Source of the DNA: a virus
Length of the DNA stretch: 60,639 nucleotides
Direction: 5' to 3' (one strand)
IMG/VR virus record: IMGVR_UViG_3300026457_000014
Coordinates: 1-60,639 of that record
In this document: positions 34,823 to 43,003 of the stretch, in pieces
Position numbering within the stretch: position 1 is the first letter of the stretch
How the letters are laid out: every line of letters begins with the position of its first letter
The notes under the pieces: generated by a model
What the model saw: only the letters and a program-made list of their open reading frames with translations
What the model was told of the DNA's origin: nothing
The model's database searches: none
Program-made: the position numbers and the translations under genes

Positions 34823-34843
34823 GATGTTGAGTTGAGTGTGGGC

Positions 34844-34919
34844 TGGTAGCCGACCCCGGATTCGAACCGGGACTTGAGCGATTTTAAGTCGCTTGCCTCT
34901 GCCGTTGGGCTAGTCGGCC
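34844..34919 (-). tRNA. tRNA-Leu (anticodon TAA), class I shape
   Basis: Minus-strand cloverleaf: acceptor GGCCGAC/GTCGGCT (one G-U), short D stem, anticodon stem AGCGA/TCGCT with loop CTTAAAA (anticodon TAA), T-loop TTCGAAT, discriminator A and encoded CCA. The variable loop has only five bases (CAAGT), whereas bacterial tRNA-Leu normally has a long variable arm. Its first ten bases overlap the stop end of the gene at 34910. Confidence 0.85.
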
Positions 34920-35128
34920 TCACTTGGACTTACCTCTACATCAATGGATGTGGAGTGCCAAGTGTGGTCATGGGGTAATGGCTCAGTGCCATACTCCCAT
35001 GTGTCGTAGTCTTCCTCGTTACGAGGATCGTCTTCAATCAGGATGTACTTAGGTGAGTTGTCTGTGATGTACTCACCAATGTTTGCCATTGCCATGGCAA
35101 GCAGTTGATCATCTGTGTAATCAGACAT
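34910..35128 (-). CDS. Small acidic hypothetical protein
   Basis: The 72-residue acidic protein starts MSDYTDDQLLAMAM. Its final codons and TAG stop lie inside the tRNA-Leu 5' end. Near its 3' end a nested hairpin (CACTTGG/CCAAGTG, inner CTCTACATC/GATGTGGAG, 34921-34964) is encoded. A strong hairpin sits seven bases upstream of the ATG. Function unknown. Confidence 0.6.
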   Translation of the reverse strand: MSDYTDDQLLAMAMANIGEYITDNSPKYILIEDDPRNEEDYDTWEYGTEPLPHDHTWHSTSIDVEVSPSEAD

Positions 35129-35135
35129 GAGTTAA

Positions 35136-35169
35136 AGGGGCATCCCTATAACGAGGATAGGATGCCCCT
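35136..35169 (-). promoter_or_regulatory. Strong hairpin before start codon
   Basis: AGGGGCATC pairs with GATGCCCCT, then CTAT with ATAG after one bulged base, 13 bp in all. On the minus strand it is followed by TTAACTC and the ATG at 35128. It lies nine bases after the PcfJ-like stop. Confidence 0.6.
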
Positions 35170-35178
35170 GCTGTGGCT

Positions 35179-36885
35179 TCAGCTATCAGATGCTAGCTGT
35201 TTCTCACGAGATTGCAAGGCTTGCTTGAATGCTTGTGAGTATTGCTCACGTTGCTCATCATCAAGGCGTTGGTTTGCAACACCTGCAATCTGAACAACGT
35301 TCATGACACCCATGGATACATCCAGCTGGATGGTGAAGGTTGGCTTGCCATCAATCATGCAGAGCACAATGAAGTGCTTGCGTTTCTTGATGTCTTCTGC
35401 ATACCTGGATGCAGAGCCAACACAGTTACGTACTGCTTGTCCCCACTGTGCAAGTTGGTGGGTATCCATTGGCTGGAAGAATGTCCAGTCACTGTCATCC
35501 ACGTTGACCTTGATTGGTTGAGGGAACAGATCCTGGTGCAATGACTCCTTACGATTGGTTACCTTCCATGCTTCTGCTTGCACATAGTCATGGAAGTCAG
35601 GCATGCGCCAGCGCTTGGGTGCTTCAAGTTCCTTACCATTCTCCAAGATACGCATGATCATGGAGAATGTATCATTCATCTCAAAGAATGATTTGACATG
35701 GTAGTCGTAATCACTCCATGAGCTACGAAGTGCACCTGTCTCCGTTTCATTAAACTTGCGTAGCATATTAAAGAACGATGCAACGGGCGTGTTCTCCTTC
35801 AACCATTGGATAAGACGTTCGTCATACCTGAATTGGTTGAGATTAATACAACGCAGTTCATTGAAGTATGTACGATAGTGATCAATAGGGCAGTCAGGCC
35901 AGATTCGAATAATGAATTCAATAGAATTACAAGTCTGTTCAAATTCCTTGAAACCATACTTGATAGATTTACGTTGTGTATTTTCTGGACTGTTGTACTC
36001 AGTAGTTGAACGATCAAGCATTGCTTGAAGTTGTTTCTTGATATACGGAGTAGTAATGATTGTTTCAGTCTTGCTTAAACATGTACCGTAAGACGAATAG
36101 CCATAGTCATTCTTCAGTAGCTTAGATGTTGCAATTAAGTTATCAACAGTGAGTTCATACTTGGTCTTGTCAGGTATAGGTTTGCTAAAGAATGCAGGCA
36201 TGTCGAGTGCATCAACAAGGTTGTTGCAACGCAAGCGATCAAAGATACCACGGCTATCAGTCCATTGAGGAATGGTTGTCATCAACTGAGATTCAAACCT
36301 ATTAATTGTTTCATTAATGTCACGTGCTTTCTGGTAGTAACTAGCAATACCCATGGCACGCCAGTTGCGACTGTCTTTGCCATTGATGATGTCTTGCTTA
36401 GTTACTGTTGCAGAGTAAGTAAAGACTTGTGAACCACGACCAATGGTATGTGGAGTACAAGTTTCTATTGTCTTGTAAATATGATTTGGAACCTGCTTAG
36501 CAGCAGCTGCAGTGTTCTTGAATGCGTAGGCGTAGCCATAGACATAGTCTTCGCCTTTCTGTGGGAGCCATGCTGCGTACCAGCATTGCTCGAAGTGATA
36601 AAGGACAGCGATAGGTACAGTGCGTGCTTGTGAAGTTGCCACGTCCACAAGCTTGGTAAACAAACGAATACGCCCTGGTGCTAGCTGTGCATTGATATGA
36701 TCAATAGCTTCTTGCTGATAGCTGGAGCGTACCACATCTTCAGGGATGAGATGTGGGATGTTACCCAGTGGATACTTAGCTTTCTTCGTAGCTTTCTTGG
36801 GTTGATTGTCTTTGACCAAAGCCTTGAGCTTTGGATCATAAGCAAGCAGTTCTTGTTGGAGATGAGAGGGAAGTTGGAAATGCAT
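35179..36885 (-). CDS. PcfJ-like protein
   Basis: From MHFQLPSHLQQELL the protein has 568 residues (a longer frame runs through the pseudoknot). The C-terminal ~130 residues match the PcfJ pattern: WTFFQPMDTHQLAQWGQAVRNCV followed by a YAEDIKKRKHFIVLC segment, PTFTIQLDV and QIAGVANQRL. PcfJ proteins occur on conjugative plasmids and phages with unknown activity. The rest is not recognised. The pseudoknot lies 30 bases upstream. Confidence 0.65.
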   Translation of the reverse strand: MHFQLPSHLQQELLAYDPKLKALVKDNQPKKATKKAKYPLGNIPHLIPEDVVRSSYQQEAIDHINAQLAPGRIRLFTKLVDVATSQARTVPIAVLYHFEQCWYAAWLPQKGEDYVYGYAYAFKNTAAAAKQVPNHIYKTIETCTPHTIGRGSQVFTYSATVTKQDIINGKDSRNWRAMGIASYYQKARDINETINRFESQLMTTIPQWTDSRGIFDRLRCNNLVDALDMPAFFSKPIPDKTKYELTVDNLIATSKLLKNDYGYSSYGTCLSKTETIITTPYIKKQLQAMLDRSTTEYNSPENTQRKSIKYGFKEFEQTCNSIEFIIRIWPDCPIDHYRTYFNELRCINLNQFRYDERLIQWLKENTPVASFFNMLRKFNETETGALRSSWSDYDYHVKSFFEMNDTFSMIMRILENGKELEAPKRWRMPDFHDYVQAEAWKVTNRKESLHQDLFPQPIKVNVDDSDWTFFQPMDTHQLAQWGQAVRNCVGSASRYAEDIKKRKHFIVLCMIDGKPTFTIQLDVSMGVMNVVQIAGVANQRLDDEQREQYSQAFKQALQSREKQLASDS

Positions 36886-36915
36886 GAGTTGAGTTCGTAG
36901 TTGGTTCGTAGTGTT

Positions 36916-36942
36916 GAGCAGTTTAACGTCGTACTCAGGACG
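36916..36942 (-). promoter_or_regulatory. H-type pseudoknot, copy 5
   Basis: RNA sense order: CGUC, CU, GAGUA, C, GACG, UUAAAC, UGCUC. P2 keeps a U-G wobble that pairs only in the minus-strand RNA (it would be A-C on the other strand), which fixes the functional strand. Confidence 0.85.
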
Positions 36943-36950
36943 TGATGTCA

Positions 36951-42002: not shown

Positions 42003-42029
42003 GAGTTGAATGCGATGGATGCAGGAGGT

Positions 42030-42095
42030 GAGTCCTGCAGAAAACCCACCGTCCGATACGAATTCGTATCAGTGGTAGGGTTATGAGCAGGAGTC
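42030..42095 (-). ncRNA. Multi-helix intergenic RNA, copy A
   Basis: Nested helices on this interval: GAGTCCTGC/GCAGGAGTC (one mismatch), AACCCACC with GGT-A-GGGTT, and a perfect GATACG-AATT-CGTATC hairpin. Copy B at 42517 keeps the layout with different paired bases. It lies three bases after the upstream SSB-like stop. Confidence 0.7.
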
Positions 42096-42097
42096 GT

Positions 42098-42481
42098 TTA
42101 GAACGGGACTTCTTCCAGTGTGGGTACTGCCTGAGCCCTTGGTTCAACAACAGCCTTGGGCTTGGGTGCTGAGCCAAGTGTTGCCCTCACGTTCGTAAGA
42201 GCAATCTCAGGGTACTTGAGTGGAAGTAGTTGATCATCCTTGGTGTAATGCGTCCGGATGCTAGAGATCCGTACGTCATATTGACTGAGGATGATCTGTT
42301 GTCCTATCACGAACGTACCGTTGCGATAGGCAGTGAGTAATCCGTTGGAATTGTTAAATTTAATTCGACAGGACCTGTCGTAGGCATCATTGACTGCAAC
42401 TGTAATTGCAAGAAATTCACGACCTTCATGGGTCGCTAATTCCATGTAGCTTACGTTGCCAATGATAGTGCTAGAGAACAT
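42098..42481 (-). CDS. SSB/OB-fold-like protein
   Basis: From MFSSTIIGNVSYMEL the protein has 127 residues with a single OB-like domain (FLAITVAVND, FVIGQQIILSQYDVRI) and a flexible tail ending PTLEEVPF, an SSB-type acidic P-F tip. With the protein at 28276 the phage would have two SSB-type proteins. It sits between RNA copies A and B and has a CAACTCAACTCAGC leader. Confidence 0.65.
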   Translation of the reverse strand: MFSSTIIGNVSYMELATHEGREFLAITVAVNDAYDRSCRIKFNNSNGLLTAYRNGTFVIGQQIILSQYDVRISSIRTHYTKDDQLLPLKYPEIALTNVRATLGSAPKPKAVVEPRAQAVPTLEEVPF

Positions 42482-42516
42482 GATTGAGCTGAGTTGAGTT
42501 GATGAGCAGGATGTGT

Positions 42517-42580
42517 AGTCCTGCAGAAAGCCCACCGTCGTAGTACATGTGTACTCAACGGAAGGGCTAAGTGCAGGAGT
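42517..42580 (-). ncRNA. Multi-helix intergenic RNA, copy B
   Basis: Helices: TCCTGCA/TGCAGGA, AGCCC/GGGCT, CCGT/ACGG and AGTACA/TGTACT. Relative to copy A the middle and terminal helices differ in sequence but still pair. It ends at the upstream gene's stop and precedes the SSB-like start. Confidence 0.7.
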
Positions 42581-42789
42581 CAGGGCTTCACGATGTCTGT
42601 GTTATGGATACAGAAGTATGTATCGCCAAGAAATCCACGGCTGAATACCAGGTTGTGCCCTGGTCTCTCGTGGCATGTGTTCTTGTGGTGTTGGTTGATT
42701 GCTTTCTGTCCAAAGACAGAGAGGATCATACCCAAGCCAGTGCCAAGAGCAATGGCGATACAAGAGTCAGCGAAGTGATTGTTAGTCAT
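42580..42789 (-). CDS. Small membrane protein
   Basis: The 69-residue protein has one moderately hydrophobic segment (CIAIALGTGLGMILSVF) followed by a His/Lys-rich tail. Function unknown. Confidence 0.55.
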   Translation of the reverse strand: MTNNHFADSCIAIALGTGLGMILSVFGQKAINQHHKNTCHERPGHNLVFSRGFLGDTYFCIHNTDIVKP

Positions 42790-42799
42790 GAGTCAGTGG

Positions 42800-43003
42800 T
42801 TAGTTGGAGTAGCAATAGTCGTAGTAGTCACGCATCTCTGCGTATAGATCCTTCACTCCACCTGGGATAAACGGAAGTGTACGTGTCTCGATGTCGATCC
42901 ACTTCTCCGTATGTCCACGTTGTTGGAAGTGAAGTTGAGTGGACTCTCCTCCGTACCACGCTACGCGAGTACGGTCGTCACACTCTGGTTGAAAGGTGAG
43001 CAT
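42800..43003 (-). CDS. Small hypothetical protein
   Basis: The 67-residue protein (starts MLTFQPECDDRTRVAW) ends in a Tyr-rich acidic tail (YAEMRDYYDYCY). It is the first gene after the control region, with a divergent pseudoknot copy 27 bases upstream. Function unknown. Confidence 0.6.
   Translation of the reverse strand: MLTFQPECDDRTRVAWYGGESTQLHFQQRGHTEKWIDIETRTLPFIPGGVKDLYAEMRDYYDYCYSN

Follow-up and report, generated by a model that had tools for sequence, protein, structure and literature searches.

Several described systems share parts of the arrangement reported here. Cyanobacterial genes that start independently of a Shine-Dalgarno (SD) sequence lack an SD core, have an open leader before the AUG and show weaker structure in the 5′ untranslated region (5′UTR) (PMC6847405). 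The tisB standby site of Escherichia coli places an H-type pseudoknot and then single-stranded RNA upstream of the start, at one site that lies ∼100 nt from a sequestered ribosome-binding site (PMC7708055). In the gene 32 operator of phages T4, T2 and RB69, a pseudoknot, an unpaired leader and the start follow one another at a single phage gene that is autoregulated by its own product and has an A+U-rich leader (PMC3014915). ACA and CA translation enhancers are A/C-rich motifs upstream of starts, with no strict position, that boost initiation jointly with an SD in enterobacteria, and ACA motifs were also found in S1-selected pseudoknots (PMC3879156). Here we analyze a 60,639-base stretch of viral DNA (IMG/VR record IMGVR_UViG_3300026457_000014, positions 1 to 60,639; 'the window'), a cyanophage contig from a virus of freshwater cyanobacteria, in which many early genes are preceded by a slot composed of a compact RNA fold and a leader that is often rich in CTCAA.

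Compared with cyanobacterial SD-independent genes, these leaders carry recurring CTCAA/ACTCA units, are very low in G and follow an exchangeable fold. The slots differ from the tisB site in having many copies, an AUG ∼22 nt away, no SD and a fold that often lies just past a stop codon; in contrast to gene 32, they serve many genes and use two unrelated folds. T4-type phages also possess mobile early-promoter cassettes (PeMob), which are regulatory, lie between small early genes and can be exchanged, whereas the parts swapped here are RNA folds with covarying stems and show no excess of promoters. We put somewhat better than even odds (a probability of roughly 0.58) on the reading that the leader is an SD-independent ribosome-loading region and that the fold separates terminating from initiating ribosomes.

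The early block of the window lies on the minus strand, shows synteny with Synechococcus phage S-EIVl (KJ410740), which infects a high arctic lake Synechococcus, and includes genes for DNA polymerase A, a single-stranded DNA-binding protein (SSB), ThyX, and GP88-family, PcfJ-like and YkuD-domain proteins.

CTCAA-rich leaders before early starts

A first-pass annotation had named ten minus-strand starts as following CTCAA-rich leaders, and an exact CTCAA does lie within 60 nt of the ATG in nine of them, the exception being 42002, where only TTCAACTC is present. The string CTCAACTCA occurs six times on the minus strand, always immediately before one of the listed starts, and once on the plus strand, while exact CTCAACTCAACTCAA is absent from the whole record. 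Genes for the leader statistics were codon-model calls, and those without an ATG start were left out of the first-start and inner-start, conserved-family, element-tally and neighbour-pair sets. Over 22 early first genes, the 40 nt before the start contain 11 CTCAA in all where 3.97 would be expected, a count attained in none of 500 dinucleotide shuffles; counted per leader, CTCAA is present in 7 of 22 against 3.6 expected (p = 0.046). Its density is 13.6 per kb in first-gene leaders, 2.5 in sense coding sequence and 3.0 in other noncoding DNA, so it is not equally frequent away from start codons.

The same holds in relatives, 25 loci of which came from scanning viral contigs with the 590-residue PcfJ-like open reading frame (ORF) as query. 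Across 51 conserved first-gene families, the mean CTCAA fraction is 0.24 at positions −35 to −1 and 0.05 at −80 to −46, a 5-fold contrast (Wilcoxon p = 2e-5), and G makes up 11.3% of positions −20 to −1 compared with 22.1% of −60 to −41 (p = 8e-8). Inner starts in conserved families have a CTCAA fraction of 0.13, below that of first starts but not significantly so. The CTCAA leader motif is therefore real and recurs across relatives, among which the number of units differs. A short leader query against phage records returned a chance match only, and first starts with CTCAA number 0/6 in Syn9, 0/7 in Syn5 and 3/18 in S-H35; because these marine cyanophages do not share the habit, CTCAA is not a general cyanophage motif.

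The leaders before these early starts are also more open, with a probability of being unpaired of 0.67–0.69 at −25 to +5, as opposed to 0.53 for inner starts. Structure around the AUG is thus weak, as in SD-independent starts, largely through base composition.

Two exchangeable folds between stop and start

The first fold is a 28-nt pseudoknot that consists of a 4-pair stem 1, one C, a 6-pair stem 2, one U and the loop UUAAAC, and it is found seven times in the window, always on the minus strand and each time at a different gene. A pattern scan of viral contigs found it in at least 118 stretches. Among the matches listed, 107 distinct viral ones pair at the three pattern-free positions in 107/107, 106/107 and 86/107 cases, all above the maxima of 89, 76 and 73 reached in 2000 partner shuffles; the two interleaved helices, with this covariation support, are as predicted for an H-type pseudoknot. 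The pattern has 21 matches in bacterial genomes and also turns up in contigs that share no detectable protein homolog with the window. A lenient blastn search of 50,697 phage records returned 149 records, 85 of them from Staphylococcus phages, at an E-value limit of 10 that lets weak rows in; of the 11 records inspected, five pass the strict pairing scan, S-H35 also passes, and the others were judged by eye. Against plasmids there were three partial matches, each of them spanning less than 80% of the query.

The second fold, class II, is a CUGGGCA..GUAAGUCCCAG stem-loop with an outer stem CUGGG/CCCAG, an internal loop GCA / GUAAGU and a variable hairpin, of which the window has two copies. In unrelated contigs both free outer pairs form in 29 of 76 distinct matches, where chance would give ∼1 in 16 (∼5 of 76); since at least one of these pairs is missing in the other 47, most of the 76 may be chance matches. 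Phage records queried with class II returned low-quality matches only. In a scan of the window against Rfam 15 (E ≤ 5) only two tRNAs reach the gathering score and the folds are unmatched, as are 18 of the 21 pseudoknot-bearing bacterial loci. A literature search found neither fold described in titles or abstract openings, subscription papers lying outside its coverage.

Both folds often begin 2–9 nt after a stop codon. For the pseudoknot, spacing and leaders were counted on copies with at least 9 of 10 pairs and a perfect UUAAAC loop. In the S-EIV group, an ORF ends no more than 90 nt upstream of 131 of 141 copies, and the stop-to-pseudoknot spacing in these 131 is exactly 5 nt in 62 and 5–9 nt in 82, while random points fall 5–9 nt from a stop in 63 of 2716 cases. 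Taken per upstream-gene family, the modal spacing is 4–9 nt in 40 of 77, and in unrelated phages the pseudoknot lies 5–8 nt past the stop in 19 of 46. Of the 91 strict class II copies that have an ORF end, 38 start 3–5 nt past the stop, and of 29 unrelated copies 19 start 0–10 nt past it. On the other side, the distance from the end of the element to the ATG is mostly 19–35 nt.

The pseudoknot and class II are interchangeable fillers of this slot. Among 800 distinct first-gene starts at S-EIV-group loci, 104 have the pseudoknot, 68 have class II (a few of these assignments being chance matches) and one has both. In one small-gene family 16 genomes have class II and 13 have the pseudoknot, with no change in leader style. 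Ahead of the PcfJ-like gene most relatives carry the pseudoknot, and two (L008 and L025) show what looks by eye like a class II fold. Over 354 distinct neighbour pairs, element agreement is 0.65 when the downstream gene is shared and 0.48 when the upstream gene is shared, against a base level of 0.19. The folds, being small, often adjacent to a stop and exchangeable, are more remarkable than the leader.

In the window, the order proposed by the first-pass annotation, in which a structure precedes each leader, applies to the starts at 24703, 27980, 29097, 32005, 34822, 36885, 38350, 38888, 39779, 40783, 42002 and 42481. It fails at 34116, which begins inside the upstream ORF, at 26402, which begins 24 nt past the upstream ORF, and at 24586, which begins inside the small ORF (start 24703) that follows a pseudoknot. 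The parts are as follows, in the direction of transcription.

42512..42600 (minus): long hairpin cassette, a third kind of structure, ending CTGCAGGACT, before the 42481 leader; fold −37.7 kcal/mol, z −5.0
42482..42511 (minus): CTCAACTCAG leader of the 127-residue ORF starting at 42481
42030..42102 (minus): hairpin cassette, second copy, ahead of the 42002 leader; fold −32.3 kcal/mol, z −7.2
42003..42029 (minus): leader TTCAACTC, ATG 42002, no exact CTCAA
40806..40833 (minus): 28-nt H-type pseudoknot GGACCTGAGCATGTCCTTAAACTGCTCA, 10/10 pairs
40784..40805 (minus): leader CACTCAATTCAAACC, ATG 40783
39810..39848 (minus): class II element, CTGGGCA..hairpin..GTAAGTCCCAG; fold −24.2 kcal/mol, z −5.0
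39780..39809 (minus): leader without CTCAA, ATG 39779
38916..38971 (minus): class II element, long form; fold z −2.1
38889..38915 (minus): leader ACTAACTCAACTCAAATC, ATG 38888
38371..38398 (minus): pseudoknot TGTCCTGGGCATGACGTTAAACTGCCCA
38351..38370 (minus): leader without CTCAA, ATG 38350
36915..36942 (minus): pseudoknot CGTCCTGAGTACGACGTTAAACTGCTCA, 8 nt past the stop of the upstream YkuD-like ORF
36886..36914 (minus): leader ...GAACTCAACTC, ATG 36885, PcfJ-like gene
34844..34919 (minus): tRNA-Leu(TAA), standing where the slot has its structure
34823..34843 (minus): leader CACACTCAACTCAACATC, ATG 34822
34117..34133 (minus): CTCAACTCAACGG, ATG 34116, within the last part of the preceding ORF, without an RNA element
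32041..32068 (minus): pseudoknot GGACCTGAGCATGTCCTTAAACTGCTCA, same as 40806..40833
32006..32040 (minus): leader CATTCAACTCAACTTAACACC, ATG 32005, GP88 family
29118..29145 (minus): pseudoknot CGTCCTAGGCATGACGTTAAACTGCCTT, before the SSB gene
29098..29117 (minus): leader without CTCAA, SSB gene, ATG 29097
28001..28028 (minus): pseudoknot CGTCCTGAGCATGACGTTAAACTGCTCA, 5 nt past the upstream ORF stop
27981..28000 (minus): leader, ATG 27980, probable true start of the DUF5895 gene
26403..26430 (minus): leader CTCAACTCAACCCAATTCAAATC, ATG 26402, no element identified
24722..24749 (minus): pseudoknot CGTCCTGGTCATGACGTAAAACTGACCA, 10/10 pairs
24704..24721 (minus): leader CACTTCAACTC, ATG 24703, small ORF 24564-24703

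Gene starts are probably to be corrected to 27980 for the DUF5895 gene and to 36885 for the PcfJ-like gene, and the start of the small ORF 24564-24703, which sits after the pseudoknot at 24722-24749, is likewise a probable correction. The tRNA-Leu gene (34844-34919, minus) contains the stop codon of the ORF at 34910-35128, and a YkuD (L,D-transpeptidase) domain protein is encoded at 36954-37691 (minus), inside the phage early block. S-EIVl (L167, 40001-79178) has two similar structures, AAAGCGGGT....TGCAAACC..., before small ORFs, upstream of the minus-strand coding sequences starting at record positions 43419 and 43732; this structure is possibly a fourth slot element.

The folds have other neighbours elsewhere. 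The pseudoknot lies directly before the scaffold gene in a Staphylococcus phage (L168), a Lactobacillus phage (L171) and D6E (L173), where the preceding gene is a minor head, portal or unnamed ORF, and the pseudoknot or class II lies 2–200 nt before a tRNA in Labelle (L169), NMeng1 (L170), Molivia (L172) and L221, the tRNA of the last having been read by eye. In bacterial contigs (L148-L150, L152, L156, L157, L159-L165) a tiny ORF ends before or within the pseudoknot; these ORFs are mostly SD-led and encode a Cys-containing peptide (..VAHCxEGC..SWA*), and downstream of several of them lie, by eye, Rrf2-, hemerythrin- or cupin-like ORFs.

Leader type and SD sites across phages

What follows the pseudoknot depends on the phage group. 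An SD core is present at 1 of 126 pseudoknot-led starts in the S-EIV group and CTCAA at 41 of 126, compared with SD at 20/37 and CTCAA at 0/37 in unrelated phages, and SD at 8/12 and CTCAA at 0/12 for bacterial-genome matches; 10, 16 and 7 copies without an identifiable start were left out of this tally. The pseudoknot-led starts of the group thus have essentially no SD core at −20 to −4, as is characteristic of SD-independent starts. Since the same pseudoknot is followed by an SD at 1/126 starts in the group and at 20/37 in unrelated phages, the CTCAA leader occupies the place of the SD. Leader type tracks the phage group and the fold does not; the leader type probably tracks the host, and may be an adaptation to it.

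The first-pass annotation had contrasted SD-free first genes with classic SD sites at late genes and at genes that start inside or right after another ORF. Its first half is borne out, since the listed starts lack an SD and their leaders are G-poor and more open. The second half is weak within the window: the three SD examples it quoted are present but hand-picked, inner starts have SD cores in 3 of 19 cases against 4.9 expected, which is no enrichment, and late starts in 6 of 32 against 8.0 expected, so late genes are not enriched either. Across relatives, with one gene taken per family, a modest contrast appears, with an SD at 16/70 inner and 11/135 first starts (p = 0.0045). Families with an SD in at least half of their members number 2/51 for first and 0/20 for inner starts, and an SD is rare in every conserved-family class (2/51, 0/20 and 1/8). 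Other cyanophages, pooled, have an SD at 3/31 first and 12/39 inner starts (p = 0.04), and T4, for comparison, at 14/19 first and 8/9 inner starts. SD scarcity at first genes is general among the cyanophages sampled, and the contrast is a matter of degree. Of the distinct initiation mode that had been suggested for the first gene after each RNA element, the lack of SD and the open leader stand, but its confinement to such genes does not, because SD-less initiation is the rule for most starts in the S-EIV group and also applies to the first genes of the other sampled cyanophages. An S1-like mode, as that annotation proposed, would be compatible with these observations.

Separately, TATAAT/TAAAATA-like boxes lie ∼20–35 nt before the ATG of late or structural genes, at 770, 10191, 17560, 46314, 49283, 51225 and 55626 (all plus) and 21875 (minus), and this sequence pattern suggests a late promoter with a very short 5′UTR.

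How the slot might work

From the observed sequence, covariation, spacing, slot exchange and absence of SD, we infer a mechanism whose steps are all interpretations. A stop codon would be followed, often within a few nt, by a compact fold, which can be a pseudoknot, a class II stem-loop, a hairpin cassette or a tRNA, then by a G-poor, CTCAA/ACTCA-rich and presumably unpaired leader of ∼20–30 nt, and then by the AUG. The 30S subunit would get to the AUG along this open A/C-rich single strand without an SD, probably assisted by ribosomal protein S1. The fold would be located between the footprints of the upstream terminating and the downstream initiating ribosome, where it would most likely separate termination from initiation and could also protect or dock the mRNA end used by the next 30S. 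Each part is plausible because tisB, ACA enhancers, cyanobacterial 5′UTRs and gene 32 provide precedents; the fold itself may be an insulator, an S1/30S docking site or an mRNA stabiliser.

Several observations weigh against this reading. First and inner starts are not significantly separated by CTCAA (p = 0.11; Fisher p = 0.17), several element-led genes (29097, 38350 and 39779) have no CTCAA in their leaders, and the openness of the leaders is mostly compositional (0.665, and 0.627 after shuffling). Window pseudoknots are near an upstream stop only in part: the spacing is 5 nt at 28028 and 29145 and 8 nt at 36942, but reaches ∼30 nt at 40833 and ∼50 nt at 38398. In addition, the folds are found ahead of tRNAs in L221 and in phages of Mycobacterium, Arthrobacter and Nostoc, positions at which a role in translating the downstream gene does not apply.

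One alternative, which we regard as doubtful though worth serious weight, is that the pseudoknot is a standby site that docks S1 and the 30S, such that S1 is bound and the 30S is held at about −22 to −50 before sliding along the leader. A pseudoknot and a single-stranded region upstream of the start are both present here, tisB is a precedent, and H-type pseudoknots have affinity for S1 (PMC7708055). The 19–35 nt between element and AUG and the closer tracking of the downstream gene than of the upstream gene also fit docking. However, class II is no pseudoknot and fills the same slot, elements precede tRNAs too, and docking does not demand close spacing to the stop.

Equally doubtful, and deserving the same weight, is that the folds are mRNA-stability or processing elements which block exonucleases after cleavage of a polycistron, shielding the upstream end or the downstream start. 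This would suit folds that lie directly after stops, those ahead of tRNAs, which RNase P cleavage would place at a 3′ end, and those found between a minor head, portal or unnamed ORF and the scaffold gene in the Staphylococcus, Lactobacillus and D6E phages; moreover, the T4 gene 32 message with its 5′ pseudoknot is described as unusually stable (PMC3014915). By itself, though, stability leaves the ∼22-nt spacing to the AUG unexplained.

It is quite unlikely that the slots are mobile regulatory or recombination cassettes in which CTCAA is functionless simple-repeat drift. Slot contents are indeed swapped between genomes and the number of CTCAA units varies among relatives, but CTCAA and G depletion are limited to the last ∼35 nt before the AUG and recur in unrelated gene families, and drift leaves the loss of G unexplained. 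Promoters of the sigma-70 type, the only type scored, are not in excess in the region (19 promoter-like sites against 24.5 expected), which speaks against a promoter cassette, and terminator-like sites give no clear signal (24 against 16.8 expected, sd 3.7).

The SSB-masked initiation that the first-pass annotation had also raised is unlikely, and it is very unlikely that the phage SSB coats the pseudoknot and leader as a translational repressor, in the manner of T4 gp32 on its own gene 32 message. The order of parts is that of T4 gene 32 (PMC3014915), and the SSB gene has its own pseudoknot slot (29118-29145). Against it, the seven window copies stand at different genes, the pseudoknot also occurs in contigs where no relative of the window's proteins was detectable, an SSB relative is found in only 1 of the 50,697 phage records, and the leader is C/A-rich, unlike the U/A-rich repeats of T4.

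Least likely of all is a recoding signal that acts on the terminating ribosome by readthrough or frameshifting in the retroviral or luteoviral style: the preferred 5-nt spacing matches typical recoding spacers, and the mode is 4–9 nt in 40 of 77 upstream families, but no frame rule extends past the 5- and 8-nt peaks, to which the frame bias is due (frames 27/10/8 in 45 families with spacing 3–12), post-stop extensions are mostly 0–26 codons without the look of selection, long ones are, by a rough estimate, about as frequent as chance in-frame downstream genes would make them, and no slippery sequence was seen by eye.

More broadly, and tentatively, at somewhat less than even odds, the two folds could be new, widespread phage RNA classes at the boundary between a stop and the next start or tRNA, a shared 'intercistronic insulator/docking' code across the phages of several phyla that cyanophages pair with a CTCAA leader replacing the SD. 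Translation starts without an SD are only partly understood in cyanobacteria and their phages, and the slots offer natural aligned replicates by the dozen, with fold, leader and gene each varying on its own, such that the parts can be tested separately. The folds are shared by phages as different as those of Staphylococcus, mycobacteria and cyanobacteria and are often positioned by the stop codon; should a function be demonstrated, they would represent a new kind of small phage RNA element.

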